Part shown: one piece after another, positions 6,521-27,031 of the stretch
Layout of the letters: every line of letters begins with the position of its first letter
Numbering within the stretch: position 1 is the first letter of the stretch
Virus record (IMG/VR): IMGVR_UViG_3300047376_000755
Coordinates: 1-29,814 of that record
Reading direction: 5' to 3' (one strand)
Source: a virus
DNA: 29,814 nt
The notes under the pieces: model-generated
Seen by the model: only the letters and a program-made list of their open reading frames with translations
Told to the model about the DNA's origin: nothing
The model's database searches: none
Translations under genes and position numbers: made by a program

Positions 6521-6531
6521 GTTCTATACCT

Positions 6532-6921
6532 TTAACCGTACTGCTGTAATCCATTTGATGAATCACCGTCATTGTATGTTTGCTTTTGATTTACCCTTGC
6601 AACCAATTCGCCTTCGTCATTCACATAATAATATATGTTTCTGTTGTCCCATTTGTATTGTTCATAATTTAAATTATTATAAACTAATTCATGATCGACA
6701 TCTCTGCCTTCAAAGAAATCTTGTCCTTCTGTAAATTCGTTAAATTGTTCTTCAACGTCACCTGGTTTATTAATGTTAATACTGTCGTTATCATTAAATT
6801 GATCTAATCTACCAAAGAACAATTCACCTTTGTCTGTTCTGCGTAATCCGTAAAAGAATCTTACTTCAGATGTAAAACCCGAGTTACCTTCTCCTGGTCC
6901 GCCTATTATAGTCAACGACAT
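6532..6921 (-). CDS. Small structural-cluster protein of unknown function (129 aa)
   Basis: I do not recognise this protein. The ATG at 6921 is preceded by AAGGAG with a seven-base spacer. The start is glycine-rich (IIGGPGEGNSG), the body is rich in Asp, Asn and Tyr, and there is no signal peptide or membrane segment. It lies 11 bases before the giant fibre gene and 12 bases after the 109-residue gene, so it is almost certainly co-transcribed with fibre genes. A small virion part, such as a fibre connector, or a fibre chaperone is plausible by position only. Confidence 0.7.
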   Translation of the reverse strand: MSLTIIGGPGEGNSGFTSEVRFFYGLRRTDKGELFFGRLDQFNDNDSININKPGDVEEQFNEFTEGQDFFEGRDVDHELVYNNLNYEQYKWDNRNIYYYVNDEGELVARVNQKQTYNDGDSSNGLQQYG

Positions 6922-6933
6922 AACATATTCTCC

Positions 6934-7263
6934 TTAAACAATATCCACATAACTTATTACAGCATCTAAAGCGTCATCTTCGTCTGCTTGTATTTCTAAT
7001 GAATTTTCTGGTGCTAAAATAAGTTTATCACCTGCACCGATTACTTTCAATGTTGCATTTGTAGGTATTGCTACATCCTTTAAATAAAAACCTTTAACGC
7101 TGGTATCGTCTCCTACAATAAGGCTTACTTTTACTGTGTCGGTAGTAAGATTAGCTACAGTTATACCAACGATTGTACTTCTTGTACTTGCATCGGTTGC
7201 TATTGCTGTTATAGGTAATTTTCCTATATCTTTTACTACTTTATTTTTAAATAATGTTGCCAT
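6934..7263 (-). CDS. Small beta-rich virion-associated protein (109 aa)
   Basis: The ATG at 7263 follows TAGGA with a seven-base spacer, four bases after the stop of the 1109-residue fibre. The protein is Thr/Val/Ile-rich with alternating hydrophobic residues typical of a beta-sandwich. It ends DAVISYVDIV, which resembles the CTISYLEV end of the 111-residue protein at 13786-14121. Both proteins have N-terminal ...ITAIATDAS / ...ITNILVCNN segments and a central GD(K)-type turn, so they look paralogous. Both neighbour fibre genes. A small decoration or fibre-attachment protein is inferred. Confidence 0.7.
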   Translation of the reverse strand: MATLFKNKVVKDIGKLPITAIATDASTRSTIVGITVANLTTDTVKVSLIVGDDTSVKGFYLKDVAIPTNATLKVIGAGDKLILAPENSLEIQADEDDALDAVISYVDIV

Positions 7264-7267
7264 CTAA

Positions 7268-10597: not shown

Positions 10598-10731
10598 CTC
10601 TTCTCCTCAATACGGGGATCCTGTCCCTCTCGCCAAATTCTCAGCATTTGCTCTTTGCCGGCGAACCACAGTTTGACCCTGCAATACAAAGGTCGCTGTA
10701 CTGCATTAATAGTATTTATCGTTTTAGTAGA
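10598..10731 (-). promoter_or_regulatory. Late promoter and about 107-base leader of the 1109-residue fibre
   Basis: GATAAATACTATT occupies 10713-10720 and onward on the minus strand, just after the stop of the 820-residue gene. The leader to the ATG is long and more GC-rich than its surroundings, and ends in GAGGAG. I see no clear terminator in it. Confidence 0.55.
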
Positions 10732-15122: not shown

Positions 15123-15572
15123 TTATGCGTCTTCTGTGAAGTCGTCGTCATCAGTACCTACTAATGTGTTGTCGTCACCAGCTTCTTCAACTTGTGCCGC
15201 ACCATCTGAAGTACTTGTGCTAAAGTTCCACGCTACACTAAGTCCGTCATAAGCGTTTGCACCTGTTCCACTTGGAGCAGATAAAGTTGCTTTACGTCCA
15301 GCAATTTTACTTACTGTGTAAGTTTCACTGTCGTCCATTTTGAATGAAATAGCCATTTCGCCTGCCGCTAATGCCGCTGGTAATTTACCAGTTGTTAGTG
15401 TACAAGTAAATTCGCCTGCTGTTCCAATTTCTTCACATACAAATTTCTTTGAGCCTTTTTGCTTTACGATATAACCTTCTTTAACTGCTGTGCCGTTATG
15501 AAAGTTTACTTTGATTTCGTTGCCGGCTGCTGTCGGCGTTCCCATCAACCTTTTATTAAGTGGTCTTCCCAT
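15123..15572 (-). CDS. Small virion structural protein (MGRPLNK type, 149 aa)
   Basis: The ATG at 15572 follows AGGAGA with a five-base spacer. The start MGRPLNKRLMG resembles short structural proteins I recall from marine T4-like phages. The middle is beta-rich (IVKQKGSKKFVCEE, AISFKMDDSETYTVSKIAG), and the last 25 residues are very acidic (DDDDFTEDA). It is the first gene of the leftward fibre operon and has its own late promoter (15667-15674) and a structured leader. Abundant late expression is expected. A decoration-type role is possible but not shown. Confidence 0.72.
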   Translation of the reverse strand: MGRPLNKRLMGTPTAAGNEIKVNFHNGTAVKEGYIVKQKGSKKFVCEEIGTAGEFTCTLTTGKLPAALAAGEMAISFKMDDSETYTVSKIAGRKATLSAPSGTGANAYDGLSVAWNFSTSTSDGAAQVEEAGDDNTLVGTDDDDFTEDA

Positions 15573-15674
15573 TGTTTTCTCCTATAATAGTAGTCCTATG
15601 CCCGTTCTATGAGCTACGCTGTGGGTACAGCATAAGTCCGCCTTGCGGCACACTATCTGACATATGTATTTATC
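15573..15674 (-). promoter_or_regulatory. Late promoter (GATAAATA) and structured leader of the 149-residue gene
   Basis: GATAAATACATATG occupies 15674-15661 on the minus strand. The leader holds two short hairpins: CCGC-AAG-GCGG (15638-15648) and GCTGT-ACCC-ACAGC (about 15618-15631). It ends TTATAGGAGAAAACAATGG, a 19-base context identical at the gp67-like start (29760). The leader is more GC-rich than its surroundings. It may stabilise the mRNA or control translation. Confidence 0.5.
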
Positions 15675-15690
15675 AAACGTAAGATTTTGT

Positions 15691-15698
15691 TATAAATA
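15691..15698 (+). promoter_or_regulatory. Perfect T4-type late promoter TATAAATA for the plus-strand trio
   Basis: TATAAATAC stands 21 bases before the ATG at 15719 and is divergent from the promoter at 15667-15674. The stretch ATAAATACAAGTGGAGGGC (15692-15710) includes the ribosome binding site and is identical to the promoter-RBS stretch of csgF. Confidence 0.7.
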
Positions 15699-15718: not shown

Positions 15719-15997
15719 ATGGACTTTTTAAGTTTAGTAGCAGATTTAGGGTTTCCGATAGCAGGAGCATTGGCAGCCGGTTTATTTGTTTTTACTACAT
15801 TAAAATTTATATTAGCAGGTGTTACAGGTTCTGTCAAGGGATTAAAAAATATTACAAGTGGTCTTGACAATCGTGTGCAAACTATGAATAATGATCTTGT
15901 GAAGATCGATGCGCTTATGAGCCATGCACTAAAGGTAAAACCTAATGTAGATAGGATTGCGGCAAATGAAGGCAAAGAAGATGCAAGGAGAGATTAA
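15719..15997 (+). CDS. YvrJ/holin-like small membrane protein (92 aa)
   Basis: The ATG at 15719 follows GGAGG with a ten-base spacer. A single N-terminal membrane segment (residues about 10-33, LGFPIAGALAAGLFVFTTLK) is followed by a predicted helical tail with charged residues (LDNRVQTMNNDLVKIDALM). The DLGFPIAGA start resembles YvrJ/UviB-like phage membrane proteins. It is paralogous to the 106-residue protein at 16212, which starts MDLSQVVSDYGFPIVAA. It may act as a holin-like or membrane-anchoring protein; no catalytic lysis enzyme is seen in the window. Late promoter control agrees with a lysis or virion role. Confidence 0.7.
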   Translation: MDFLSLVADLGFPIAGALAAGLFVFTTLKFILAGVTGSVKGLKNITSGLDNRVQTMNNDLVKIDALMSHALKVKPNVDRIAANEGKEDARRD

Positions 15998-16237
15998 GTG
16001 ATTTGGTTAGACTATACTGTAGAACAAGCTGGAGATAATTTTACTGTCAAAGGTGATTGGCCCGGAGAAGTAATGGGTGTTCAAAAAGACGGTACGCCAA
16101 AATCTCATTGGTTATATAAACCAGGCGATGTCTTTATTGTTAACGAAAACGGATGGCTTGTTAAGTCAGACGAGGTGAACACGTTATTAATGAAATACGA
16201 AAAGGAAAAATATGGATCTAAGTCAAGTAGTAAGTGA
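15998..16237 (+). CDS. Small soluble protein of unknown function, GTG start (79 aa)
   Basis: The GTG at 15998 directly follows the TAA of the previous gene. AAGGAG stands seven bases before it, which fixes the start. The protein is short and charged, with W-rich segments (VKGDWPGEVMGV, SHWLYKPGDVFIVNENGWLV) and a lysine/serine-rich end. No signal or membrane segment is visible. It lies between two membrane-protein paralogues and overlaps the second by 26 bases, so the three are probably translated together. Function not recognised. Confidence 0.7.
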   Translation: MIWLDYTVEQAGDNFTVKGDWPGEVMGVQKDGTPKSHWLYKPGDVFIVNENGWLVKSDEVNTLLMKYEKEKYGSKSSSK

Positions 16238-16532
16238 TTATGGTTTTCCAATAGTCGCGGCTACTGGGTTAGGTTACTTTGTATATTATATTTGGAAATG
16301 GGTTACGACCGAAATTCAACCTGTCGTTGGTGATGCTATGGCTACACTAATAAAACTGGTTGACAGAGTTCGCATGTTAGACAACGACATGATACGCTTG
16401 AATACAAAACTTACTATGGCTTTAGAAAACGAAGCAAAACTTGATAAAGAGCGTAGAGCTGAACTTGAAGAAATTGTCAACAAATACAGTGATGTAACAA
16501 ATCAAAAATTTGACAGCACTGGTAAAAAATAA
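16212..16532 (+). CDS. YvrJ/holin-like small membrane protein, paralogue (106 aa)
   Basis: The ATG at 16212 lies inside the end of the previous gene and has AAGGAAA upstream. The layout copies the 92-residue protein: a GFPIVAATGLGYFVYYIW membrane segment (about residues 11-30), then a long charged helix (LVDRVRMLDNDMIRLNTKL, ending LEEIVNKYSDV) likely to form a coiled coil. Two diverged copies in one operon suggest hetero-oligomers or specialised roles. Its stop touches the stop of the convergent cyclase gene with no bases between. Confidence 0.7.
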   Translation: MDLSQVVSDYGFPIVAATGLGYFVYYIWKWVTTEIQPVVGDAMATLIKLVDRVRMLDNDMIRLNTKLTMALENEAKLDKERRAELEEIVNKYSDVTNQKFDSTGKK

Positions 16533-18584
16533 TTATTTAGAAGTTGCTATAAACACACCATTCCAATCTTTTGGTAGGTCTTGTGTTTTCATGTATTCAC
16601 AGCGTTCAATCCACATATCATAATAGCCTTGCATTTTTGCATTAAAGTGCCTTTTTAGTCTTTCGCATATGTAAATAGCTTCATCAAACTTTTGTTCTTT
16701 GTATGCATCGTGCATACGCTCGTGCATTTCTTGACTTTTCTTTTGAGCGTGTGTTCCTTCTAAATCTAACACAGTATAAATGCTTAATCCTACACTTTTA
16801 CCTTTTACTTGTAAGTCATCTACTTTTAGATAAAAGAAATCATCTTTAGTTTCTTTGTATGTGCTTTCGCCTACTAAGAGGAGACATCCGTATTCTTTAC
16901 ACTTGCTTTCAATTCTTGCGGCTGTTGATACTGCGTCTCCCAACACATCGTACGAATGTCTTGCTGTGCTACCCATTTCTCCAAGATAGCCAAGGCCGGT
17001 ATTGATGCCGGCACCCATTCCAACGGGCGGCCTTCCTTCTGCTGTAATTTTATCATTAAATTTCTCCACTGCACTTAACATATTCAATCCACATTGTATT
17101 GCTGTTTTAGGATGTTCTGGATCGTCTATTGGCGCATTGTGTATGTGCATACTTGCATCGCCGATATACTTAATAACCATACCGTCTGAATCTAATATAG
17201 GTTGCGTAATAGCATCCATATAGCCATTCATAATTTTAGTTAAGCCTTTAACATCATCACCGAACGATTCGCCTAATGGTGTAAAGCCACGCAAATCACT
17301 AAACAGTATACTAACTTCTTTTTTCATTCCTTCTTTAATTAATGAAGGATTTTCTTGTAGTAAACGTACTACTGTTGGACTTGCATATCCTGCAAACTGT
17401 TTCTTAATTGCTTGTTTCTGTGTGTATTCACTTACAAATCTATTAAACACTGCATGTAATCCGACGATTAGAACTGTAATCACCGGCATAGTAACATCAA
17501 GCAAATAAAGGTACTCTTGCCAAGCGTATAACGCTCCGTAAGCAAGACTTCCGCTAAAGAGTAGTATAGACCCACCAACTATGTAATATGGTGTAAAACG
17601 AGCTAATAATACTAATAAAAGGCCTAAAATAGCTGTAGTAAGTAGTTCAGCCAAAAACGCCCAGTATGGACGTTGTATCTGATCTCCATCTATTACAGTC
17701 TGGAGCATAACTGCTGAAGGAATGTAATTATATTTTGGACCAGTTGGTGATGCTATCATTCCGCCAATTCCTTCAGCAGTTACTCCTACAATAACAGTTT
17801 TACCTGCTACTGTACTTAAATCATTGTCAGCAACACTTATAGTTTCAAAATCTTTATTCCAACGTAACCAAATTTGTCCATTTGGATCTGTGGTTATTAT
17901 TGGAAACCCCGGAACTCTTACTTTTTCAATCCCACCTTGATTAGCTTTCACTTGATAGCTTGGATTTCCTGTTGCTACTCTGATTACTTCCACTGCTAAA
18001 GCAGGATACGTATCATCCCCGATACGCATAAGAAGAGGTACTCTACGTACAACGCCATCGATCTCTGGGAAAGTGTTCAACACTCCTACACCGTCTGCAT
18101 TCTCTCCTAACAATGGAATAGGTCCCAGCATCCCCGGCCATTCAAACATGTATGGCAGTGGGTCTCCTATCTTCGCAATTCCTCGCGGGACCGAGTTGCG
18201 ATTGGCTTGTGTAGATCCTGTTTGAGCAATCACTACGCCGTTATCTACAAGTGCTTCGGCTAATGCTATATCACCGCCAAGTCTATCTGGCTCTGAAAAT
18301 AACATAGGCATTACAATAATGCCAGCACCTGCTTCACGAAGCTTCCAGATTATATCTGCAAGAACATCACGCTTCCAAGGCCATTGTCCGTACTTTTCAA
18401 TGGCGCTTTCGTCGATAGTGACGACAGCAATATCTTGGGATAATGTTGGCTGATCTGTTTGTTGAAGTATATCAAATGACTTCAGCCGAGCCGTTTGCAC
18501 TACAGAGCTATCATTGTAGTGGAAACCTATCATAATAAAAGCCGTAACTAAGGCCACAGCCCAATGTGTAATATACTTGGTCAT
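16533..18584 (-). CDS. CHASE2-domain class III adenylate cyclase-like protein (683 aa)
   Basis: Residues about 5-22 form a membrane segment. A CHASE2 extracytoplasmic sensor follows at about 25-300 (LKSFDIL, IAVVTIDESAIEKYGQWPW, GVVRRVPLLMR). Three membrane segments lie at about 306-328, 334-353 and 358-378. A cyclase domain occupies about 420-605. Metal-binding Asp are D430 (ILFSDLRGFT) and D476 (KYIGDASM). K472 and D546 (SYDVLGD) match the adenine-recognising pair, so cAMP is the likely product. R557 is present, but the usual Asn of VNxAAR is Ser553 (AVSTAAR). The ATG at 18584 has no ribosome binding site; an AATAAATAC late promoter lies five bases upstream, so the message may be leaderless. 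It would sit in the host inner membrane and make cAMP if active. It is the last gene of the leftward run that starts with csgF. Confidence 0.9.
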   Translation of the reverse strand: MTKYITHWAVALVTAFIMIGFHYNDSSVVQTARLKSFDILQQTDQPTLSQDIAVVTIDESAIEKYGQWPWKRDVLADIIWKLREAGAGIIVMPMLFSEPDRLGGDIALAEALVDNGVVIAQTGSTQANRNSVPRGIAKIGDPLPYMFEWPGMLGPIPLLGENADGVGVLNTFPEIDGVVRRVPLLMRIGDDTYPALAVEVIRVATGNPSYQVKANQGGIEKVRVPGFPIITTDPNGQIWLRWNKDFETISVADNDLSTVAGKTVIVGVTAEGIGGMIASPTGPKYNYIPSAVMLQTVIDGDQIQRPYWAFLAELLTTAILGLLLVLLARFTPYYIVGGSILLFSGSLAYGALYAWQEYLYLLDVTMPVITVLIVGLHAVFNRFVSEYTQKQAIKKQFAGYASPTVVRLLQENPSLIKEGMKKEVSILFSDLRGFTPLGESFGDDVKGLTKIMNGYMDAITQPILDSDGMVIKYIGDASMHIHNAPIDDPEHPKTAIQCGLNMLSAVEKFNDKITAEGRPPVGMGAGINTGLGYLGEMGSTARHSYDVLGDAVSTAARIESKCKEYGCLLLVGESTYKETKDDFFYLKVDDLQVKGKSVGLSIYTVLDLEGTHAQKKSQEMHERMHDAYKEQKFDEAIYICERLKRHFNAKMQGYYDMWIERCEYMKTQDLPKDWNGVFIATSK

Positions 18585-18588
18585 ACTG

Positions 18589-18596
18589 TATTTATT
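18589..18596 (-). promoter_or_regulatory. Late-type promoter AATAAATA overlapping the upstream stop codon
   Basis: The minus strand reads AAATAAATACAGT directly before the cyclase ATG. The TAA of this motif (18594-18592) is also the stop of the 67-codon gene. A start site six or seven bases downstream would fall on the ATG. Confidence 0.4.
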
Positions 18597-18795
18597 TGTC
18601 TTTGATACGGTCTTTAAATTTTAAAGGAGGTCTGTCTACTTGTAGTCGTTTAGGGCATTGGTACTGTTTCAAAGTAGATGCGTAATCCTTTGAAGTGTCT
18701 GTGCATTTATAATAACACTGCCTATCTTCACCTACAATTTCTTGCTTGTATAAGTTGCAGGTTAAGAAGCCAGCCATAGCCAACTCTAATAACAT
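18592..18795 (-). CDS. Small cysteine-containing, possibly exported protein (67 aa)
   Basis: The ATG at 18795 is eight bases after the stop of the previous gene. No clear ribosome binding site is present; a second ATG at 18777 (MAGFLTC) is an alternative. The short hydrophobic N-terminus (LLELAMAGFLTC) could direct membrane insertion but is short for a signal peptide and not a clean lipobox. Four Cys (about 13, 27, 31, 48) suggest disulphides or metal binding. The C-terminus is basic. No family is recognised. It is a small gene in the envelope-gene operon. Confidence 0.55.
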   Translation of the reverse strand: MLLELAMAGFLTCNLYKQEIVGEDRQCYYKCTDTSKDYASTLKQYQCPKRLQVDRPPLKFKDRIKDK

Positions 18796-18800
18796 ACAAT

Positions 18801-18807
18801 TATTTAG
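18801..18807 (-). promoter_or_regulatory. Possible late-type promoter CTAAATA overlapping a stop codon
   Basis: The minus strand reads AACTAAATAATTGTATG. The TAA is the stop of the 62-residue gene and the ATG starts the next gene. It lacks the final C of the ATAAATAC consensus, so it is weaker evidence. Confidence 0.3.
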
Positions 18808-18992
18808 TTAAGTTTTATGTAAGTCTCGTCAATTACAATTTCGATGCAATCTATAGACTGGCCTTTTGATTTTACTAACACATGTGCTTTGCTAAGTTCT
18901 GCGGCACATTCTTCTTGTGTAGTAAATGTTCCTATATGATAATTTTGCATGGCTCCGCCTGCAGATAATGCCAAGTAAATTAATATCCACAT
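18804..18992 (-). CDS. Small membrane/exported protein (62 aa)
   Basis: I place the start at the ATG at 18992, one base after the TAG of the previous gene (TAGTATG, coupled translation) with AGGA ten bases upstream. The longer reading from a TTG at 19013 has its AGGAG directly abutting the codon, which is too close. The N-terminus MWILIYLALSAGGAM is a likely signal peptide or membrane anchor. The rest (YHIGTFTTQEECAAELSKA) resembles small secreted proteins with one cysteine pair. Function unknown. Confidence 0.65.
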   Translation of the reverse strand: MWILIYLALSAGGAMQNYHIGTFTTQEECAAELSKAHVLVKSKGQSIDCIEIVIDETYIKLN

Positions 18993-18993
18993 A

Positions 18994-19476
18994 CTACCAT
19001 TTTCCTGTGCCAACTCCTATTAACCAAAAAACAAAAGCTAATACAGATAGGCCTACTACCGCTAAAGTTATTCCGACTACCCATTCTAAGATTAATTGTT
19101 TACGTTCTTCAGCTTTATAAACTTCTGCCGCACGTTTCTTGCGCATTTCGCCTTCGATGCGTACAATTTCATCCCAGGCACTTGGACCATAATAAAAACT
19201 TATGTGTGTTTTCATTTCATCGCGCATTTCTTTTGCTTTTTGTTTATGCCCCCAAATTTCCAGAGCATTTTGTTCTATTTGGCTTGCGCCAAACAGTTTT
19301 TTGAACATTGGTGGATTTTCGGCTTGTTTGTGTGAAAAGTCTAAGTCAGACATTGCACCTGCCCACTGAGATAGAGTCCCTGCCATGTCGTGCAGTTCTC
19401 GCCCAGTGTCTATTGCTGACTTAATTCCGCGATATGCGGCTGTTGCCATTCCTATAGCCGATACGGGATCGATCAT
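18994..19476 (-). CDS. Membrane-anchored coiled protein of marine T4-like phage type (160 aa)
   Basis: I choose the ATG at 19476 (MIDPVSAIGMATAAYRGIK), because proteins with this start are familiar to me from marine T4-like phages. A GTG at 19500 adds eight residues. Residues about 1-30 are small and hydrophobic. The middle is helical with NPPMFKKLFGASQIEQNAL, EMRDEMKTHISFYYGPSAWD and EGEMRKKRAAEVYKAEERK. A C-terminal membrane segment covers the last 30 residues (GITLAVVGLSVLAFVFWLIG). A late promoter lies at 19546-19553. It is possibly virion-associated or a membrane factor; function unknown. Confidence 0.72.
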   Translation of the reverse strand: MIDPVSAIGMATAAYRGIKSAIDTGRELHDMAGTLSQWAGAMSDLDFSHKQAENPPMFKKLFGASQIEQNALEIWGHKQKAKEMRDEMKTHISFYYGPSAWDEIVRIEGEMRKKRAAEVYKAEERKQLILEWVVGITLAVVGLSVLAFVFWLIGVGTGKW

Positions 19477-19545
19477 GGGTATTGCTTTCTGTGAATGCAC
19501 CGAAAGGTGACTTTCTGAAACGCCCTCACGCTTCGCTTACAAGTG

Positions 19546-19553
19546 TATTTATC
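19546..19553 (-). promoter_or_regulatory. T4-type late promoter GATAAATA overlapping the upstream stop codon
   Basis: The minus strand reads AGATAAATACACTTG. The TAA at 19551-19549 is the stop of the 85-codon gene. The leader contains a GAAAG-TCAC-CTTTC hairpin just before the GTG at 19500. Confidence 0.6.
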
Positions 19554-19806
19554 TTTTACCCATAAGTTTGGCTTTTAGAGCCATCATTTCAAGATCTTTT
19601 TTGCTGGCTTGGGCTGATTCAGTTTTCTCTGTTCGCGTATCCACCACATGCTCGGAGTGTGCTTGTGTACTTTGATTGGATTCTTTATGCCTTCCGATGC
19701 GGCTTTCAAGAGCGGCGATTCTGGATTTAAGCTCTGCAACTCGCTTAGGAATCCAATCCTCTTGTTGTTCTGCATCTGTGTGCTCCTTTTGAAACCATCC
19801 GAACAT
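19549..19806 (-). CDS. Small coiled-coil protein of unknown function (85 aa)
   Basis: The ATG at 19806 has AAGGGG eleven bases upstream, which overlaps the end of the previous gene. The N-terminus MFGWFQKE is followed by a predicted coiled coil (VAELKSRIAALESRIGRHKE), a polar linker rich in Gln, Thr, Ser and Glu, and a helical basic end (MMALKAKLMGKR). No signal peptide. It may bind a partner at the membrane face, by analogy with its membrane-protein neighbours; no family is recognised. Confidence 0.65.
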   Translation of the reverse strand: MFGWFQKEHTDAEQQEDWIPKRVAELKSRIAALESRIGRHKESNQSTQAHSEHVVDTRTEKTESAQASKKDLEMMALKAKLMGKR

Positions 19807-19814
19807 GTGTTTAT

Positions 19815-20030
19815 TTACCCCTTAAATATAGGTTCCCATTTCCAGTCCGGTACTTCGTCCCAAAATGCCGCAGGCGAAACAAATGTAGTTTCCCATGTTG
19901 CATTTACTACTCTATACTCAAAATATAAAAATGTAATGTAAGTCATACATAATGCTACTAATATACCACATCCTAAAAAATACATTTTTTGTAGCTTTGT
20001 AAACATATGATCTTGATTAAAGTTACTCAT
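19815..20030 (-). CDS. Single-pass membrane protein of unknown function (71 aa)
   Basis: The ATG at 20030 (MSNFNQDHMF) is one base after the previous stop, with GGAGG eight bases upstream. This is better supported than an in-frame TTG at 20051. One membrane segment (about residues 16-36, YFLGCGILVALCMTYITFLY) is followed by an aromatic-rich tail (FWDEVPDWKWEPIFKG). The gene is coupled to its neighbour in the curli-to-cyclase operon. Function not recognised. Confidence 0.68.
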   Translation of the reverse strand: MSNFNQDHMFTKLQKMYFLGCGILVALCMTYITFLYFEYRVVNATWETTFVSPAAFWDEVPDWKWEPIFKG

Positions 20031-20031
20031 T

Positions 20032-20307
20032 TTAACATCCTCCGTTTGCAAGATATCTTTTGTTCTTGCCCCAGCACGGGTCTATGTTTCCATTTGATCC
20101 GCCTGGATATCTGAAATGAGGATTTGCTTTTAAGAAAGCCGCAGTATCATAATTATCTTTTATGTATAGTGCAACTCTACCCTTAGATGCACACCCTGCG
20201 GCCTTTCTAAAATCAAATTCTTCAAATCTTTCTTCAACAGGTAAGTTTCTATCATACCCTTCTAAATCGAGACAAGTTTTTGCTATCTCGTTAAAGCCCA
20301 TTTCCAT
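20032..20307 (-). CDS. Small soluble protein of unknown function (91 aa)
   Basis: The ATG at 20307 has GGAAGGA eight bases upstream; the next ATG (20301) is also possible. The protein is acidic at first (LPVEERFEEFDFRKAAG), then has aromatic and glycine segments (NPHFRYPGGSNGNIDPCWG). Four Cys are present, including one at the C-terminus. No signal peptide is visible. It begins 18 bases after the second curlin-repeat gene, so it is probably in the same transcript. I do not recognise a family. Confidence 0.65.
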   Translation of the reverse strand: MEMGFNEIAKTCLDLEGYDRNLPVEERFEEFDFRKAAGCASKGRVALYIKDNYDTAAFLKANPHFRYPGGSNGNIDPCWGKNKRYLANGGC

Positions 20308-20325: not shown

Positions 20326-21780
20326 TCAGTTTTGTGTAATAGTAGTTGTGCCACAACCATTTGCGTTTAAGCAATTTTGCATTATAGAATAAGTTTTTCC
20401 TGTTGAACTATCTTGTGTAAGATCCAAACCTGATGTATAACCTGACATTGAAATACTGGCATTGTGATTGCCACTTCCGTCTTGTGTTACATCAATTGTT
20501 TGATCATTGCCTACAGATATTTCTGCATAGTGCGAGCCTGAGCCTTGTTGGTATAGGTCTATATCATTGTCGTCACCTTGTACACTTAGAAATGCTTTCT
20601 TATCTCCATCATTAAGTTGACTTGTCAAAACATTGTTGTCGTCACCGTCAAGATCTAATGCAACAAAGTGTCCATTAGTTCCAATACCATTGGCATGATT
20701 TTGCGTAATACTTGTTGTATTAAAGCCGCCATTGATGTTAAACTCGGCTCTGTTATCGTCTGAACCTGTAGTACCGCCTTGGTCAACAGTTGTATCGTTA
20801 TAGTTGCCTGTGATATCAAACAACATTACATTGTTAGTACCATTTTGATTTAGCGTAGTAACATTGTTACTTCCAGTAATTTCTGCATTTTCATAATTAG
20901 TAGTTGTACTACCAGTGCCTGCGATAAGATTGTTATCGCCTTCTTGGTCGATAGTTAACTCGTTGTCATTGCCCACTTGCTCGATGTATATACCATTACC
21001 ACTATGTGTTACTGCTCTTGATGTTGTTATTTGTGTGGTCTGTGCATTGCTTATACTTGATGTGTAAGTCACTGTTGTTGCAACTAATCCTTCTTCTTGC
21101 AATGCTCTTAACAAGAAAGCATTTTGATTATCAACAAGAGAATTATATGATAAAAACTGTCCATAACCAGTAGTGACCATTACGGTACCACCATTGGAAC
21201 CATAGCCCCATTTATACCAACTCATATAATTATTACCTGTGCTGTTTTTGGCCATTGCTGTACCGCCACTTGCTGTAAACAATTTGTCTGGTCCTGGCAA
21301 TGTGTTTTCACTTGATGTACTTGAAGCATAATCGCCTACTGCAACTGAAGCAAAACAGCCGCTACAACTTTGGGAATACCATGTCATTGATCCCACACCC
21401 ATTTTATTTTCAATCAGTGATTCTATATTGCCATTTCTGTTGGTTGCACCGTTGACTCCTACTATGAGTAATTTACCACCACCATTTACATAGTTGTCAT
21501 ACGCTGTCTTACAAGTACTACCACAGTTTGAAGTTCCTGCCATATCAATAACTAAATCTTGGCCTGATATTGCACTTGAACTTACTGTGCCACTTGTACT
21601 TCCTGTAACAGTAAATCCTAAATCTTCAAGTTCGCTTTTTAAATGATTGTATTGAGCGGTGGTGCCTGGGCTACCGTTACTATAATATATAAAGGCATCA
21701 TTAGCTTGCACAGGACAAGCCTGAAAAACAAAGTATAATGCTATAACTAAGATTCCTAAATGTGTTCCTGTTAGTTTCAT
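20326..21780 (-). CDS. Secreted hybrid protein: unidentified N-terminal domain plus curlin-repeat domain (484 aa)
   Basis: The ATG at 21780 overlaps the stop of the FecR gene (TAATG). A signal peptide covers residues 1-26 (cleavage after VQA). Residues 27-235 look like an alpha/beta Rossmann-type domain (FIYYSNGSPGT, DLVIDMAGTSNCG, GGGKLLIVGVNG), perhaps ThuA/amidotransferase-like; no active-site triad is claimed. Residues about 264-484 carry curlin-type repeats: IYIEQVGNDNELTIDQEGDN fits I-x-Q-x-G-x2-N-x5-Q-x-G-x2-N, with further Q/N repeats (TTLNQNGTNNV, SITQN, LYQQGSGSH, VTQDGSGNHN). It is likely a substrate of the CsgG pore that joins amyloid fibres. An N-terminal globular domain is unlike CsgA or CsgB, which are about 150 residues. 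Confidence 0.8.
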   Translation of the reverse strand: MKLTGTHLGILVIALYFVFQACPVQANDAFIYYSNGSPGTTAQYNHLKSELEDLGFTVTGSTSGTVSSSAISGQDLVIDMAGTSNCGSTCKTAYDNYVNGGGKLLIVGVNGATNRNGNIESLIENKMGVGSMTWYSQSCSGCFASVAVGDYASSTSSENTLPGPDKLFTASGGTAMAKNSTGNNYMSWYKWGYGSNGGTVMVTTGYGQFLSYNSLVDNQNAFLLRALQEEGLVATTVTYTSSISNAQTTQITTSRAVTHSGNGIYIEQVGNDNELTIDQEGDNNLIAGTGSTTTNYENAEITGSNNVTTLNQNGTNNVMLFDITGNYNDTTVDQGGTTGSDDNRAEFNINGGFNTTSITQNHANGIGTNGHFVALDLDGDDNNVLTSQLNDGDKKAFLSVQGDDNDIDLYQQGSGSHYAEISVGNDQTIDVTQDGSGNHNASISMSGYTSGLDLTQDSSTGKTYSIMQNCLNANGCGTTTITQN

Positions 21781-22913
21781 TATTGTCTCTGCTTTATATC
21801 TATACTATTAGCACCTACACCAAGTAGATATTCATACACTGCTTCGTCTTGCTGTTCTATGTTTAGAGTATAACCGTATTGATCATTTAATTTTATATCT
21901 ATATTGTTGTTTAACGAAATATCTTTTCTTCTTATATGATATGTAGGTTCTTCGTAATCAAGGAATATACGTGTTGTTTCGTCATATCCTGTAATTTGTT
22001 TTTGTCTAAATATTTCTTGGTTTTCCAGTTTAAGTTGATCTCTAAATAAGTTAGCTAATGCTAAATTTAAAACATCTAACATATCAACTAACAAATCAGA
22101 TAGATAGTAATCGCTATCATCTAACTCTGTAGCCCATATATTTTGCACATCTGATGTTAGTGCATCATTATTAAGTTCGTCAAATTCTAAAAAATCTATA
22201 TCAAGAAAATCAAACATCTTTTTTGTTTTTTTACGTATTTCATCTTCCTCTTCTTCATAAGGTTTTTTCTTACGTAATATTAATAGTTGGTTGATTTCTG
22301 ATTCGCCTATATCTAAAATTAAAGGGGGAGTCGGGGGACGCATGCCGTGTGTAACCATGGTGGATTGGAAGGCTTGGTTCATAATTACAAAGCCAGCATC
22401 GGTTTCCACTTCTATTTCTCCTGTGTAGCAATACCCATCTACATCACAAGAGGGTAAAAGTGTTACCATCGTGCCGCCCGCCTCGTCTACTACTAATATA
22501 AAATCGGTTCCCCTAACTCCGATTGTAGCAGATGGTGTTTTAATTTGTACGTTTTGTCTATATTTTTTTGCTATTTGGCCTGAAGCATATCTCACACCTC
22601 CTAAGGAGGCCTTAATTGAAAGTTTGCCTATATCGTTTGCAGGGTCATAGACAAACTCGTCAATCAAAAGTCTTGAATGTTCTGTTAAATCTACTCGTGT
22701 TTCGTCAATAAAATCAATTCTCATTTTACCGTTAGCTGTAACCGCAGTGTCCATACTTTGCACACTTACGCCTGCGCCACCTGTAATTACATCATTTCGC
22801 CTTTCAAGCACGCCAGAGCCTTTCATTTCGCCAATATTGCCTGCTGACAAATTAGCATAAACGGTTGAGGTGCTCGAAAGAAAAAATGCGAATGTTAGAA
22901 TTAATCTTAACAT
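21780..22913 (-). CDS. Secreted FecR-domain protein (377 aa)
   Basis: I choose the ATG at 22913, one base after the stop of the curlin gene. A GTG at 22922 adds three residues. A signal peptide covers about residues 1-20 (LRLILTFAFFLSSTSTVYA). A FecR domain follows with VTANGKMRIDFIDETRVDLT, VYDPANDIGKLSIKA, then TPSATIGVRGTDFILV. Residues about 190-330 are a charged helical region (KKKPYEEEEDEIRKKTKK). The last 45 residues have curlin-like strands (NNIDIKL, YTLNIEQQDE, NSIDIKQRQ). Bacterial FecR-domain proteins often accompany envelope sensors, including CHASE2 proteins; a CHASE2 cyclase ends this same run of genes. It may act in the periplasm or on the surface. Confidence 0.85.
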   Translation of the reverse strand: MLRLILTFAFFLSSTSTVYANLSAGNIGEMKGSGVLERRNDVITGGAGVSVQSMDTAVTANGKMRIDFIDETRVDLTEHSRLLIDEFVYDPANDIGKLSIKASLGGVRYASGQIAKKYRQNVQIKTPSATIGVRGTDFILVVDEAGGTMVTLLPSCDVDGYCYTGEIEVETDAGFVIMNQAFQSTMVTHGMRPPTPPLILDIGESEINQLLILRKKKPYEEEEDEIRKKTKKMFDFLDIDFLEFDELNNDALTSDVQNIWATELDDSDYYLSDLLVDMLDVLNLALANLFRDQLKLENQEIFRQKQITGYDETTRIFLDYEEPTYHIRRKDISLNNNIDIKLNDQYGYTLNIEQQDEAVYEYLLGVGANSIDIKQRQ

Positions 22914-22914
22914 T

Positions 22915-23661
22915 TTAGTCACTCTGCGTTATATTGACAGTTTGACCATCACCTGAAAAAGTTGCATCAACTTTGTTGTCGTTAACGCCACTTTGGTTAA
23001 TGGTGTAAGATGACCCGCCGCCTGTAATATCTAAGATAATTTCATGCCCGTTTGTATCTCCATTACCGTCTATATCTAAATCAATAATATTTCCTCCAGC
23101 AACACTTGTTGAAAGATTATTATCGGTAGCTGATTGGACTTGGTTAGATGCTAACGATGCACTGTTATCTACAGTGACAGTTATGTTTGCATCTGTTCCG
23201 TCAACGTCAACGTCAAAAACGTTTCCGTCTCCATCAACAGTGAATGCCGCAAGTAAATCTTCTGCATCTGCAGATTGCCCTACATAAAACTTGAATTCGT
23301 TGTCATCACCATCTACAGTGACATTCAACGTAACGTCATCACAATTACCCGAACTTGCGCTTGAACATAACATGTCTACTGTGTTACGATCACCAGTAAA
23401 ATCCCATGTTCCTTCGTAGTTCACTCCTTTGATAGTTGCCGCAATAACGTTTGCACTTCCTGTCTGTGTAATATCGAACGTCATACCGTCGCCCTCTAAA
23501 ATAGCCGCAGTTGTTGCTGTGCCTATAACATTATTCGCACCATCTTGTACTATGTCTAAGTCTAATGTGTCTCCGACCTGCTCGATGTAAATATCGTTTG
23601 CCAGAGCAGTAGATACAGTAAACCAGAGTATAGCTGTTAAGTACAATTTTATACTTTTCAT
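22915..23661 (-). CDS. Curlin-repeat secreted protein, CsgA/CsgB-like (248 aa)
   Basis: The ATG at 23661 has AAGAGGG eight bases upstream and lies 13 bases after the csgG stop. A signal peptide covers residues 1-21 (cleavage after TALA). The mature start NDIYIEQVGDTLDLDIVQDG closely matches the repeat of the 484-residue protein. Further repeats end in Q-x-G or D-G-x-x-N (FDITQTGSANV, VTVDGDDNEF, YTINQSGVNDNKV, VNITQSD). Many repeats have Asp in place of Gln, so the amyloid core may be weaker and more acidic than E. coli CsgA. It is probably exported through CsgG. Confidence 0.85.
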   Translation of the reverse strand: MKSIKLYLTAILWFTVSTALANDIYIEQVGDTLDLDIVQDGANNVIGTATTAAILEGDGMTFDITQTGSANVIAATIKGVNYEGTWDFTGDRNTVDMLCSSASSGNCDDVTLNVTVDGDDNEFKFYVGQSADAEDLLAAFTVDGDGNVFDVDVDGTDANITVTVDNSASLASNQVQSATDNNLSTSVAGGNIIDLDIDGNGDTNGHEIILDITGGGSSYTINQSGVNDNKVDATFSGDGQTVNITQSD

Positions 23662-23674
23662 AATAGTTACCCTC

Positions 23675-24478
23675 TTATTTAAACTTCCAGAGTCCTTTAT
23701 TAACTCCTTCGTTTACCAGCTCTATTATGCCTTGTTCAATGGCTGCCCTCACAGCATAATTAACTGGTTCATTAACACTGAAGCCGGCTTCCGACTCCAC
23801 TAATTTAGTCCCCAAATCCAAAAACTTGAAGATGTCCGCTCCGGACCTGTAGCTTGCAATCGTTTTTTCGGTTGCTATGCTCATCAACACCTTACCGGTG
23901 CTAACACTAACAAGGCGCATCACAATAGTAACAGTGTCTATTCTGTACTCTGTTTGTGCTCCTATTCCTAAATACCTTGCTCCAATTCCTCCGACTGCAA
24001 CATTGCTGTCGTATCCTACAATGCCGCCTTCAAGCAATAAGCCCGCAAACAACATAGGTTTTAATGGCGTTGGACCATTAGGTAAATCTTTTTCATACAC
24101 GTCACGTGTGTTACGTATCAACTGACGTTCTTTAATCAAGTGGTCCATGCCCACTCTTTCAACAACTTCAAACCACGTTCCGTTTCCTACTTCTTGTAGA
24201 GCTTTAATAACCCAAACTTCACTTCCTTGTGTTACTGCGCTACTTAAATTAGCAATATTATCTGCAGGTTTACGTTGTCCTGTTTTATCTGCAAATTGGT
24301 ATACTGCTATTGTAATTTTTGGTCCATCTATAGGACGAACATTCATCATTCTATCTTTAATAGGTGACACCTGTAATCCAGGACTGTCTTGTGAATCTAT
24401 TAATTTTTCCATGCTTTGCATGCCTGCACAGCCTGTTAGGAATGCAAGGGTAAGAATGGCACAAACAGTTTTCAGCAT
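23675..24478 (-). CDS. csgG: CsgG-like curli secretion pore lipoprotein (267 aa)
   Basis: I start at the ATG at 24478, one base after the csgF stop (TAGTATG); an upstream in-frame start at 24544 would disrupt the signal. A lipoprotein signal ends in the lipobox LTGC, with Cys17 the lipidated residue. The body follows E. coli CsgG closely: IAVYQFADKTGQ, SSAVTQGSEVWVIKAL, WFEVVERVGMDHLIKERQLI, GGIVGYDSNVAVGGIGARYL, GIGAQTEYRID, SVSTGKVLMS, NEPVNYAVRAAIE, GVNKGLWKFK. The protein family forms a nine-subunit outer-membrane channel for unfolded curli subunits. The length is close to E. coli CsgG (277). The constriction loop differs (see findings). It is very likely a functional pore. Confidence 0.95.
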   Translation of the reverse strand: MLKTVCAILTLAFLTGCAGMQSMEKLIDSQDSPGLQVSPIKDRMMNVRPIDGPKITIAVYQFADKTGQRKPADNIANLSSAVTQGSEVWVIKALQEVGNGTWFEVVERVGMDHLIKERQLIRNTRDVYEKDLPNGPTPLKPMLFAGLLLEGGIVGYDSNVAVGGIGARYLGIGAQTEYRIDTVTIVMRLVSVSTGKVLMSIATEKTIASYRSGADIFKFLDLGTKLVESEAGFSVNEPVNYAVRAAIEQGIIELVNEGVNKGLWKFK

Positions 24479-24479
24479 A

Positions 24480-24968
24480 CTAAAAATTAAACTCTCCTGA
24501 TCCTGGTATCGATATTTCAGTAGTAGAGCCATCTTCTTCAACAACAGTCAAAGTGATTTCTCCAGTTATAGCATCTTTAACCCATGATATAGTTGAACCT
24601 TCGATTTCTGCTGTTCCTGATGTTGGGCATGTGCCTGTTGTGGCATCACAATCAGCAAACATACTATCAACCATTTGTTTTGATAGTTGTGCATATATTC
24701 TTGATTCAACGTTCTTAATAAATTTATTAAGTGTAGTATTTTCTAATTCACGCTCTAAGCGAGCCGCTTCTGCTTTCTGTGCATCTGCAATTTCTTTTCT
24801 GCGGTTAAACTGTAGCTGTTCTACACTTAGTACGTGAGTACTGTAGCCGTTACCATAATGAAATGCTGGAGATTTAAAACTCCAAGTCAAGTCACTTGCG
24901 GCAACATTGGGTATAGCAAATGTAAGTGCTAAAGTCAGACCGATGATATGTATATTTCTTATCTTCAT
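24480..24968 (-). CDS. csgF: CsgF-like curli assembly factor (162 aa)
   Basis: The ATG at 24968 has GGAGGG eight bases upstream and a late promoter at 24988-24995. A signal peptide covers residues 1-24 (PNVAA|SDL). The mature start DLTWSFKSPAF parallels TMTFQFRNPNFGG of E. coli CsgF, the segment that inserts into the CsgG channel. A helical part follows (LQFNRRKEIADAQKAEAARL), then strands ISWVKDAITGEITLTVVEED and STTEISIPG that match the CsgF C-terminus. A Cys pair near 109 and 115 is not typical of E. coli CsgF. It couples secretion to surface nucleation in bacteria. The stop is one base before csgG. Confidence 0.9.
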   Translation of the reverse strand: MKIRNIHIIGLTLALTFAIPNVAASDLTWSFKSPAFHYGNGYSTHVLSVEQLQFNRRKEIADAQKAEAARLERELENTTLNKFIKNVESRIYAQLSKQMVDSMFADCDATTGTCPTSGTAEIEGSTISWVKDAITGEITLTVVEEDGSTTEISIPGSGEFNF

Positions 24969-24987
24969 AAAGGAAGCCCTCCACTTG

Positions 24988-24995
24988 TATTTATC
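24988..24995 (-). promoter_or_regulatory. T4-type late promoter GATAAATA for the curli operon
   Basis: GATAAATACAAGTGGAGGG on the minus strand stands 19 bases before the csgF ATG. It puts the curli-type genes under the same promoter class as the virion genes. Confidence 0.7.
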
Positions 24996-25094: not shown

Positions 25095-25358
25095 ATGGTG
25101 CTAAAGTCAGAACAGGATGTAATGTTCGAAGCTTTTGAGGAAATGAGTCGACATCATAATATCAAAGATGACCAGAACGTACCTACAAAAAATTTAGATA
25201 AAGAAACTGAAGATTTTATAATAGATAAAATTAAAGATGCTTTAATTGAACACAACTACAATCAAACACATGCAAGCAAATCTTTAGGAATCAAACGTAC
25301 AACGTTTATTGCTAAATGTAAAAAGTTTGGAATTTTTAATAAGAAAACAGACGCCTAA
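25095..25358 (+). CDS. Fis-family helix-turn-helix DNA-binding protein (87 aa)
   Basis: The ATG at 25095 has AGGA six bases upstream. Residues 1-38 are polar and acidic. Residues about 42-80 match the Fis/NtrC C-terminal helix-turn-helix: FIIDKIKDALIEHNYNQTHA, then SKSLGIKRTTFIAKCKKFGI. E. coli Fis has [23 protein letters not shown] at the same place. The length is near Fis (98). It probably binds DNA as a dimer. It is on the opposite strand to its neighbours, between the curli operon and the capsid genes, so control of curli genes or of the nearby small-RNA region is plausible. The target is not known. Confidence 0.85.
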   Translation: MVLKSEQDVMFEAFEEMSRHHNIKDDQNVPTKNLDKETEDFIIDKIKDALIEHNYNQTHASKSLGIKRTTFIAKCKKFGIFNKKTDA

Positions 25359-25368: not shown

Positions 25369-25591
25369 AAGAATAAGCAATTTTAGGTAGGACTCGGTTT
25401 CACCTACAACCCTTCGACACAGATACCTGTCTGAATCCCGGGAACCAACTTCCGCTCGGTAGAGCGATGTGACACAACGCATTTCTGCAACCATGCCTGG
25501 GTACCACCCCTAAGCTGTCATCTTCAACCCTCTGGTAAGAGCCTCTTCGATGCACTAAAAAATAAAAGTTAATTACTCTTTTATTGCTTAT
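25345..25591 (-). ncRNA. Candidate phage small RNA (about 247 nt), family not recognised
   Basis: A sigma70-type promoter (TTGACT, 16 bases, TATATT) ends at 25598 and an intrinsic terminator lies at 25345-25368. Between them, 25381-25550 is clearly more GC-rich than the surroundings and has no long ORF. Several short hairpins are visible on the minus strand: CTCT-TACC-AGAG, GGGT-GGT-ACCC, CGCTC-TACC-GAGCG, ACAG-GTAT-CTGT and GTAGG...CCTAC; two share the loop TACC. An A/T-rich inverted repeat (AATAAAAG...CTTTTATT, 25561-25585) lies at the 5' end. No tRNA, tmRNA or 6S shape was found. The structure and transcription are inferred. Confidence 0.6.
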
Positions 25592-25597
25592 GTTACT

Positions 25598-25625
25598 AAT
25601 ATAGCATCTATATTATAAAAGTCAA
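25598..25625 (-). promoter_or_regulatory. Sigma70-type promoter in front of the candidate small RNA
   Basis: TTGACT (25625-25620) and TATATT (25603-25598) are separated by 16 bases on the minus strand. This differs from the ATAAATAC late promoters and suggests host polymerase use, perhaps early in infection. Confidence 0.6.
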
Positions 25626-25720
25626 CCACTTTTTTGCACTTTTTGCAATAAAAAGTCAACTTTTTTCTTATGGTGCAGTTTGATAAGCTGTTGAAAGCAC
25701 CAAAGCGTATAGTTGTCCAT
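25622..25720 (-). CDS. Small ORF with strong ribosome binding site (32 aa)
   Basis: The ATG at 25720 is preceded by GAGGAG with a seven-base spacer, one of the best sites in the window. The peptide starts MDNYTLWCFQQLIKLHH and ends with a basic amphipathic helix (KKKVDFLLQKVQKSG). It lies after a late-type promoter and structured leader, and before the small-RNA promoter. It could be a real small phage protein or a leader peptide. I do not recognise it; a chance ORF cannot be ruled out. Confidence 0.55.
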   Translation of the reverse strand: MDNYTLWCFQQLIKLHHKKKVDFLLQKVQKSG

Positions 25721-25802
25721 TACACTTCTCCTCGTTAAAGTTAAAGTGCGTTCCTTCGCTAATGCTACTTCCGTCCCGTAGGATGAACGTAATAATATTT
25801 AG
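25721..25802 (-). promoter_or_regulatory. CTAAATA promoter and structured leader of the 32-residue ORF
   Basis: CTAAATATTATT lies at 25802-25791 on the minus strand, directly after the capsid-gene terminator. The leader can fold with CGTTC...GAACG as outer pairs and CTAC...GTAG inside, loop GGGACGGAA. It then gives GAGGAG and the ATG. Confidence 0.5.
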
Positions 25803-25855: not shown

Positions 25856-27031
25856 TTAGCTAAAAGATACATTACCATTGGTAATTGCAACGGCAGCCAA
25901 GTAATCAGCGGCGTTACCAAGCGATGAAGCAGTATTGTTTAGCTCAACATAACCATAACGTGTCATAAATGATACTGTTGGTTCGAATGTTGATGGATCT
26001 AATACAACACCTGAGCTCATTAGCGGAATGTATGGGCAATAAAACGCTGCCGCATCTGATTCGCTTGAACCTTTGTAACCAACAAGTACGTTTGCACTGT
26101 CGGCTGCATATGTGTTAACATATACCTTCATAGCGTTGTTCAAAGTACCAACCATTTTAGTGTTAGTTGGAGCTTCAAAAGTTCCTTCAGTAGTTCTTGC
26201 AAATGCTGAAGTTGTTGCACTTTGTAGGATCGTTAGCGCAAATGGGCTAACTACGGCCCAGTTACCTGCGCCTCTACGTGTACGCTGTGCAATCAAGTTT
26301 GCAACTCTATTGATTTGAACTGCCAATGCGGCGTGTTCGTCACCAACGAATGTTGCTGTACCTGATACAGCGGCCTGATCGTATGTAAGTGCGGCTGTAC
26401 CTGCAAGAGTATTAAGACTTGAAAGGACCTCTTGGTCGATTTCAGCAGTAATTTCTTGTGCAAGTGCTGCCATGATTTCAGCTTCTACGTCAATACCGTG
26501 CTGTGACTGAGCGTCCTGAGCCGCCTCAAATGTCCAGCGAGCTGACAATTTACGTGTCTTAGCTTCGACTGTTTGCTTGAGGATCTGGATGCTTAGTTGA
26601 TTTCCAGCTGTACCTTCTTTAGTTGCTGTAGCATCTGCTTTACCATTTGCATTACCTGAATAACCTTCAGCTATTTTGAATGGTGAAAGAGCTTCTTCGC
26701 CTGCGGTTGTTGAACCGCCTGCTGTGCCTGCGTAAGTGTCCGAATAACGGACTCTTAGTGTGTGGATTTGACCCACTGGACCGGTCATTGGTTGTACCCC
26801 AACAAGTTCATTTGCAATCACTGTTGGCATAACACGTCTGATGACTGGTAGGATAACTCTATTAAGAGTTGCGACATTACCGGCAGATGTAGCACCAGCT
26901 GTTGCTGACTCTGACAAATACGCTCTCGTATTTTCCAAAGTTGCAGCCATAACTGATTTCTTGTTGCCCTTAAGGCCTTCAAGAAGTGCTGTCTTTGTAT
27001 CCTGCCAGCGACTTTCGAGTAGTTCTGACAT
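25856..27031 (-). CDS. gp23: Major capsid protein, T4 gp23-like (391 aa)
   Basis: The ATG at 27031 follows AAGGAG with a six-base spacer. The segment IANELVGVQPMTGPVGQIHT matches the conserved GVQPMTGP region of T4 gp23. It is shorter than T4 gp23 (521), as in many marine relatives. A likely gp21 cleavage site is LSE|S at residue 41/42, of the (L/I)-x-E type used in T4 head maturation; the first 41 residues would be removed. It forms the hexameric capsid lattice. It ends the capsid operon, with a strong terminator after it. Confidence 0.95.
   Translation of the reverse strand: MSELLESRWQDTKTALLEGLKGNKKSVMAATLENTRAYLSESATAGATSAGNVATLNRVILPVIRRVMPTVIANELVGVQPMTGPVGQIHTLRVRYSDTYAGTAGGSTTAGEEALSPFKIAEGYSGNANGKADATATKEGTAGNQLSIQILKQTVEAKTRKLSARWTFEAAQDAQSQHGIDVEAEIMAALAQEITAEIDQEVLSSLNTLAGTAALTYDQAAVSGTATFVGDEHAALAVQINRVANLIAQRTRRGAGNWAVVSPFALTILQSATTSAFARTTEGTFEAPTNTKMVGTLNNAMKVYVNTYAADSANVLVGYKGSSESDAAAFYCPYIPLMSSGVVLDPSTFEPTVSFMTRYGYVELNNTASSLGNAADYLAAVAITNGNVSFS

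Follow-up and report, generated by a model that had tools for sequence, protein, structure and literature searches.

The virus DNA considered here (the window: all 29,814 nucleotides of IMG/VR record IMGVR_UViG_3300047376_000755) carries a type VIII secretion (curli) module, which on balance we take to build a fibre on the infected cell late in infection, where it would act as an adhesin, with a FecR-domain protein joining or capping the fibre and signalling to a nucleotide cyclase. The core consists of five packed minus-strand genes, running from 24968 down to 20326, across which Pfam matches to CsgF, CsgG, curlin repeats and FecR are found:

24480..24968, minus strand: csgF, the secreted pore partner (Pfam CsgF 41.3 bits, cut-off 25.8; signal peptide by inspection).
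23675..24478, minus strand: csgG, the outer-membrane lipoprotein pore (lipobox LTGC by inspection; Pfam CsgG 166.4 bits, cut-off 20.8, for the open reading frame (ORF) 23675-24544).
22915..23661, minus strand: cur1, the first curlin-type subunit (C-terminal end VNITQSD; signal peptide by inspection).
21780..22922, minus strand: the FecR-domain gene (Pfam FecR 39.3 bits, cut-off 24; likely start ATG 22913).
20326..21780, minus strand: cur2, a hybrid subunit (Pfam Curlin_rpt 32.9 bits, cut-off 20.7).

Just 1 base lies between the csgF stop and the csgG ATG at 24478, 13 bases separate csgG from cur1, a further single base separates cur1 from ATG 22913 of the FecR-domain gene (or the two overlap by 8 bases if GTG 22922 is used), and the FecR-domain gene and cur2 overlap by 1 base. 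The csgG start is probably ATG 24478 and the TTG 24544 of the ORF list probably wrong, because the lipobox sits after the inner ATG. A CsgG pore lipoprotein, its CsgF partner and, in Cur2, a curlin-repeat substrate above the Pfam cut-off are thus all present, as a type VIII secretion system demands. The strict pattern [FWYL]x[FWY]xxPxF is present in 71 of 89 distinct phage CsgF sequences. An earlier note on this DNA had read CsgF, CsgG, a curlin, a FecR-domain protein and a hybrid curlin as one packed set, and the Pfam matches and junctions bear this out; its five genes are real, but the unit does not end at 20326 and continues with the cyclase and with a pair of small proteins, here called A and B. 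The cyclase, the A/B pair, a nearby helix-turn-helix (HTH) gene of Fis type and the curlin-like end of the FecR-domain protein had all been overlooked.

The order of the genes was counted over 82 loci, these being HTVC008M, Melnitz and, from a scan of IMG/VR seeded with CsgG, the best 80 out of 590 relatives (so that close relatives are what was sampled), with 59 distinct CsgG sequences among them; each count takes in only loci with DNA long enough to show the gene. CsgF stands ahead of CsgG in 58 of 58 and Cur1 follows in 56 of 56, Cur1 is followed by FecR in 50 of 50, a second curlin is found in 39 of 41 (it is absent from L041 and L066) and the cyclase lies downstream of csgG in all 33. The five-gene arrangement is thus not chance, and conservation of the order in related phages, which the earlier note had left to profile searches, is seen. 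The HTVC008M and Melnitz records have the same gene order as the window.

Such a set is not new. Passages of a 2020 survey (PMC7029224) place csgF and csgG of pelagimyophages alongside curli-associated genes and hypothetical ones, and passages of a 2022 paper (PMC9599517) give the order CsgF-CsgG-CsgA/B-FecR-second CsgA/B-adenylate cyclase for podoviral and myoviral pelagiphages, with detection of the phage curli set at all 65 GOV2.0 stations and expression in metatranscriptomes. These reports and the HTVC008M and Melnitz gene order make the five-gene set a published one, of a kind known from pelagiphages, and the novelty that the earlier note had seen in a complete substrate-pore-FecR set therefore falls away. 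What goes beyond the published passages is the larger module, the curlin-like end of the FecR-domain protein, the variable Cur2 N-terminus and the placement of the late motif. Literature searches on phage curli, FecR, curlin, PA14 and jumbo or marine phages, covering titles and the starts of abstracts, returned nothing on phage curli besides PMC9599517 and PMC9004378, and at that depth no mention of the FecR tail, the Cur2 domains or A/B. No near-identical DNA was found among phage records. Judged by the passages of PMC9599517, PMC7029224 and PMC9004378, the pelagiphage systems resemble the window in the CsgF-CsgG-CsgA/B-FecR-second CsgA/B-cyclase order and in having no CsgE, whereas the window differs in A/B lying on the other strand behind the cyclase, in an unnamed Cur2 N-terminal domain and in a capsid of large-phage type.

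The remaining parts of the unit, to which the cyclase and the A/B pair belong, lie beyond 20326:

18592..20307, minus strand: six small ORFs separating cur2 from the cyclase (of 84 profiled sequences, 2 to 15 carry a relative of any one of them).
16533..18584, minus strand: the CHASE2 class III nucleotide cyclase (Pfam CHASE2 143.1 bits, Guanylate_cyc 61.4 bits).
16212..16532, plus strand: protein B, 106 amino acids (aa), a paralogue of A (one membrane span and a coiled coil by inspection; PHROG 18771).
15998..16237, plus strand: a small ORF between A and B, with relatives in 41 of the 84 sequences profiled.
15719..15997, plus strand: protein A, 92 aa (PHROG 18771; by inspection a coiled coil and a single membrane span).

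PHROG 18771, to which both A and B belong, is annotated without a function. Linkage of the pair to curli genes was assessed by IMG/VR scans not seeded with curli genes, using the window A, the HTVC008M A and a distant B (the best 80 of 418, 221 and 213 relatives respectively, some contigs of the first scan being also in the CsgG set). Curli genes, meaning CsgF, CsgG, curlin or FecR, are present in 66, 74 and 73 of each 80, or 213 of 240. A further 11 loci, all from the first scan, show the cyclase only, and 10 of these stop inside the cyclase, L126 extending 947 bases past it; 16 loci show neither, and 14 of them end within 450 bases after the A/B pair. In the other two a desaturase-like gene stands right after A/B, at the expected csgF site: L227 (3670-4650) and L230 (4335-5120), contigs close to the HTVC008M type in which the DNA ends after that gene. 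These scans are a fairer test than the CsgG census, where A/B is found in 43 of 44 loci in a row that admits loci showing any A/B and so is biased towards presence; L078 has no A/B within 20.8 kb. The commonest layouts have A/B directly ahead of csgF on the same strand or, as in the window, tail to tail with the cyclase, and in L007, L137 and L157 the pair lies on the same strand behind the cyclase. A search of 50,697 phage records gave hits to A in six, two of HTVC008M and four of Melnitz and so two independent phages; B hits the same six, and CsgG and the cyclase also have their best matches there. In six others CsgG is matched distantly and neither A nor B is, and so a phage curli pore protein alone does not imply A/B. 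These CsgG-like proteins, which fall outside the present kind of module, occur at about 29-30% identity in five Brevundimonas phages of ~350 kb (ON529851-ON529853, ON529855, ON529860) and at 41% identity in a 1.5-kb Salmonella phage record (OR851715).

Quite what A and B are is suggested in part by a published description. In passages of PMC9599517 a "histidine kinase, sometimes two" is placed before csgF in podoviruses, and it is A/B that occupy the place before csgF in HTVC008M and Melnitz. Neither A nor B matches any histidine-kinase family, and HATPase_c is found in none of the window, HTVC008M and Melnitz among the 11 records searched, being over the cut-off in record G393 and below it in G392. 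Since A and B are of about 100 aa without such matches, the published histidine kinase genes are probably A/B.

Bacterial relatives of the module were looked for by an alignment scan of bacterial genome contigs with CsgG, which gave seven loci 43-74% identical to the query. These are taken as phage contigs binned into metagenome-assembled genomes (MAGs), because five of the seven hold A/B next to the curli genes, and a bacterial ancestry was not obtained by this route, the scan returning no bacterial relatives. The apparent phage-type curli contigs (L162-L168) sit in MAGs labelled Pirellulales, Rhodobacteraceae, Flavobacteriaceae and Pelagibacter. Across the class of a Rhodobacteraceae MAG, taken as Alphaproteobacteria, CsgF is matched in 7 of 385 genomes (six over the cut-off), one being the MAG with phage-type contigs; that MAG is also the sole genome of the class to match A, which is found in 0 of the 384 others. 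The curli operons of E. coli and Alphaproteobacteria share CsgG, CsgF and curlin substrates with the window, in contrast to which FecR, the cyclase and A/B were not found by phage profiles in five 19-kb bacterial csgF/csgG stretches.

Timing of expression is indicated by motifs of late type. A wider late consensus is known for T4-like phages. In the window two such motifs stand ahead of operons:

24988..24995, minus strand: late-type motif GATAAATA, beginning 27 bases before csgF.
15691..15698, plus strand: late-type motif TATAAATA, before A.

The leaders of A and csgF have ATAAATACAAGTGGAGGGC in common, and AATAAATA lies 12 bases before the cyclase, too near the start codon to rely on. TATAAAT is the T4-like late motif form given in passages of PMC9004378. 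Counts were made over the 70 nucleotides ahead of script-chosen starts, on distinct upstream sequences and with dinucleotide-shuffle controls, for the full NATAAATA and for the core TAAATA. Where csgF is the first gene, the full form is present in 27 of 48 leaders and the core in 45 of 48 (shuffles 2.3 and 5.7), and before A in 58 and 78 of 89 (shuffles 5.4 and 12.9). Both forms fall to 1 of 37 where csgF lies behind B, to 1 and 3 of 93 before B, to 0 of 89 before csgG and to 0 of 80 before FecR; for the cyclase they stand at 29 and 41 of 73 (shuffles 1.9 and 5.6). Being present before first-gene csgF and A and nearly absent before csgF behind B, B, csgG and FecR, the motif marks the heads of operons and shifts with their layout. 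A late-type promoter motif ahead of the set, where the earlier note had placed a late promoter, is thus upheld at 24988-24995, and, going by the motif, the module is probably switched on late in infection.

The structural model of the FecR-domain protein (mean pLDDT 74.5, pTM 0.50) has a signal-peptide-like helix at residues 2-16, with beta structure setting in near residue 25, the FecR domain, a low-confidence helix and then, at the C-terminus, a further beta domain (pLDDT 84-89 for residues 311-377). The FecR domain resembles the PupR signalling domain 6ovk (Z 15.4, 135 aligned, rmsd 2.7) and the putative anti-sigma factor 4m0n (Z 14.5), the VIA-align matches covering mainly residues 20-210. 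The protein therefore has the domain fold of the FecR/PupR cell-surface signalling regulators, but unlike these shows in the model no cytoplasmic anti-sigma part or membrane span ahead of the domain, and it carries a C-terminal beta domain that the listed bacterial matches do not reach. FecR alignment matches occur in 139 of the 385 genomes of the class searched above, and those listed end by model position 227 of 375, barring two that lie on contigs of phage type in the MAG, and because they stop there the tail looks specific to the phage module. It ends in a strand of the pattern [hydrophobic]x[hydrophobic]xQ followed by 0-4 residues, which is found in Cur1 (85 of 85), Cur2 (68 of 73) and the FecR-domain protein (81 of 83) and, among controls, in CsgG (0 of 94), CsgF (0 of 90), the cyclase (4 of 84) and 33 of 1988 other ORFs of at least 120 aa outside the curlins and FecR, many of which are probably not genes. 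With this strand and a putative signal peptide the FecR-domain protein seems built like a client of the secretion system, as we infer from sequence and model. A search of the PDB with the FecR alignment also paired the tail with a domain of a staphylococcal adherence protein, a match that at E 0.023 was weak and was not used. A partial parallel is offered by passages of PMC5192318, where an exported FecR-domain protein adjoins a CHASE2 sensor kinase in a Burkholderia biofilm operon (BiofilmReg); the likeness to the window lies in the exported FecR-domain protein, the CHASE2 sensor and the biofilm role, and the differences, as those passages describe the operon, are a kinase in place of a cyclase and the absence of a curli pore and of a substrate.

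The N-terminal part of Cur2 is variable. In the window it forms an unnamed domain (about residues 29-230), followed by curlin repeats (about 260-484), and the model of this Cur2 (mean pLDDT 59) shows two-strand repeats with the N-terminal part poorly modelled; a Foldseek search with it gave no match at E 0.001 or better. The unnamed domain has relatives in L004, L091, L094, L104 and L108, while a PA14 domain over the cut-off takes the N-terminal place in HTVC008M, L088 and L158, and an F5/8C domain is over the cut-off in L157 and just below it in L151. Domains of the PA14 and F5/8C families often take part in sugar binding. An extra N-terminal domain is found by inspection in 9 of 17 long Cur2 proteins (at least 330 aa) listed from the first A-seeded set. 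Cur1 is grouped with the second curlin in profiles made from the related loci.

Put together, these parts suggest the following course. Late in infection the host would make an outer-membrane pore of CsgG and CsgF, and through it the two curlin-type proteins would be exported to form an amyloid fibre on the infected cell, with Cur2 as its displayed and exchangeable part. The fibre would work as an adhesin by which lysing cells and released virions stay near new hosts, and is probably an adhesin because the Cur2 of some phages carries domains of sugar-binding type. The FecR-domain protein would be exported to the periplasm, where its curlin-like end may join or cap the fibre at the pore and its FecR domain may report the state of fibre or pore to the inner-membrane CHASE2 cyclase, with A and B as putative co-expressed inner-membrane partners. 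A bolder version, conceivable but doubtful, is that of a fibre machine that monitors itself and has eight or more parts, in which the FecR-curlin chimera would replace CsgE, its strand lying in the fibre base and its FecR domain forming a periplasmic plug or anchor at the CsgG mouth that signals the fibre to the cyclase, while A and B would form an inner-membrane hetero-complex serving the secretion system and the Cur2 N-terminus would be swapped to choose the adhesion target. The match of the FecR-domain protein model to 5ix9 ("Cell surface anchoring domain"; Z 9.5, 73 of 76 aligned) offers a mere lead for the anchor idea.

Several observations weigh against a late adhesive fibre of this kind. 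Passages of PMC9004378 report for Melnitz no clumping in cytograms or electron micrographs. For CsgE, the absence of which the earlier note had pointed out, a profile search that detected the E. coli control found 0 of 11 records to have it, of which HTVC008M and Melnitz are complete and the others are fragments or have no stated completeness; passages of PMC7029224 term CsgE non-essential. Taken alone Cur1 reaches 14.7 bits with Pfam Curlin_rpt, under the cut-off of 20.7. The C-terminal strand pattern was picked after the tails had been inspected, with a crude curlin-unit profile about 9 of 40 FecR tails exceed 5 bits, where shuffled ones do so in 2% of cases, and hhalign pairs the FecR tail with Cur1 over just 12 columns at a probability of 3%. 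By inspection an extra N-terminal domain is the exception, being present in 3 of the 58 distinct Cur2 proteins of the CsgG-seeded set, and it is absent from the Melnitz Cur2. The usual transition-state residue of such cyclases is an Asn. Among the relatives of the cyclase K-xx-GD is kept in 74 of 74 and SDxRGFT in 64 of 74, but Ser replaces that Asn in 66 of 74 (5 have Asn and 3 give no match), and so its activity is uncertain.

Of the other functions that have been put forward, a device for timing lysis is unlikely: CsgG and CsgF would form a gated or pinholin-like pore, as proposed by the Melnitz authors in passages of PMC9004378, and in addition A and B would be holin-like and the curlins plugs or remnants. 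The late-type promoters suit this, as do the one-span appearance of A and B, their YvrJ matches (best E 0.098 and 0.019) and the match of B to a holin PHROG (E 0.002), but every holin-type match is weak, and a pore for lysis needs neither the two curlins, kept at the near-constant frequencies of the census, nor the adhesin-type domains of some Cur2 proteins. Phage exclusion genes are usually early. A fibre or pore that stops competing phages from adsorbing seems a poor candidate, since the late-type promoter would bring expression at a time when exclusion is of little use, which argues somewhat against it, even if a surface coat could plausibly shield receptors and such a barrier is proposed for pelagiphages in passages of PMC9599517. 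Adhesion is preferred over a superinfection barrier because of the variable Cur2 domains and the late timing.

Were Cur2 or the FecR-domain protein to decorate the virion and aid attachment, the late-type promoter, the adjacent capsid gene and the sugar-binding-type domains of some Cur2 proteins would all fall into place; CsgF, CsgG, Cur1, FecR and Cur2, each bearing by inspection a signal peptide or lipobox, are nevertheless predicted to leave the cytoplasm, which is the site of virion assembly, and this makes a virion component very improbable. Least probable of all is an uptake pore for iron or cofactors, suggested in passages of PMC7029224 and PMC9599517, as it leaves two curlin substrates unexplained, the FecR-domain protein here appears to be exported and has no anti-sigma part, and there is no sigma factor match among the ten proteins scanned with Pfam. 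An adhesive fibre with FecR-to-cyclase signalling is the account we prefer.

Two genes lie beyond the csgF end of the module:

25095..25358, plus strand: a Fis-type HTH gene, divergent from csgF (Pfam HTH_8 27.6 bits, cut-off 22).
25856-27031, minus strand: the gp23-type major capsid gene, beside the module.

The capsid gene agrees with the capsid neighbourhood described in the earlier note. Its product is 87% identical to that of the 330-kb IMG/VR contig L161, which also carries the module, ~65-70% identical to those of the 40 best records in a listing of phage matches (280-470 kb in almost every case) and 37% identical to that of HTVC008M, and it lacks the closeness to the HTVC008M capsid expected of a Kyanoviridae pelagimyophage. 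A capsid PHROG is matched in 9 of 30 module-bearing contigs, five at ~540 bits, three at 331-346 bits like the window type and one in a fragment; one of the contigs at 331-346 bits is a 60-kb record near-identical to the window. The module is present in at least two T4-related capsid lineages, that of HTVC008M and Melnitz and that of the window and the 330-kb contig. In the 84 sequences profiled the Fis-type HTH gene is divergent from csgF in 12 and lies between csgG and cur1 in 7, counts in which the window appears along with its copy L083 and two near-identical loci, L003 and L004. In L024, L025, L073, L074 and L079-L081 it is antisense between csgG and cur1 in an otherwise constant operon. 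The Fis-type HTH protein is a possible local regulator.

Structured RNAs are predicted on the minus strand between the capsid gene and csgF, namely a glutamine riboswitch at 25745-25791 (Rfam 49.6 bits, gathering 35), behind which comes a 32-codon ORF at 25622-25720 (minus strand) with GAGGAG ahead of it, and a manA RNA at 25377-25585 (Rfam 59.8 bits, gathering 55.2). A freshwater-2 RNA at 15570-15652 (minus strand; Rfam 65.8 bits, gathering 49.9) forms the leader of a 149-aa gene at 15123-15572, and the GATAAATA motif recurs at 15667, just upstream of this RNA. Three long repetitive genes at 644-13194 (minus strand; 1958, 1109 and 820 aa), possibly of tail-fibre type, occupy the greater part of the window's first half.

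Phage curli is widespread in the ocean and has so far been treated as a pore or an incomplete operon. The set itself is real and conserved, and it is the added parts and the link between FecR and curlin that merit follow-up. With a parts list that now takes in the cyclase, A, B, the FecR-curlin chimera and a variable Cur2, a probable late timing and a spread into a capsid lineage of large-phage type, the question of function becomes a testable one, and the findings suggest that a FecR-domain protein may have a place in an amyloid machine, beyond the regulation of iron.

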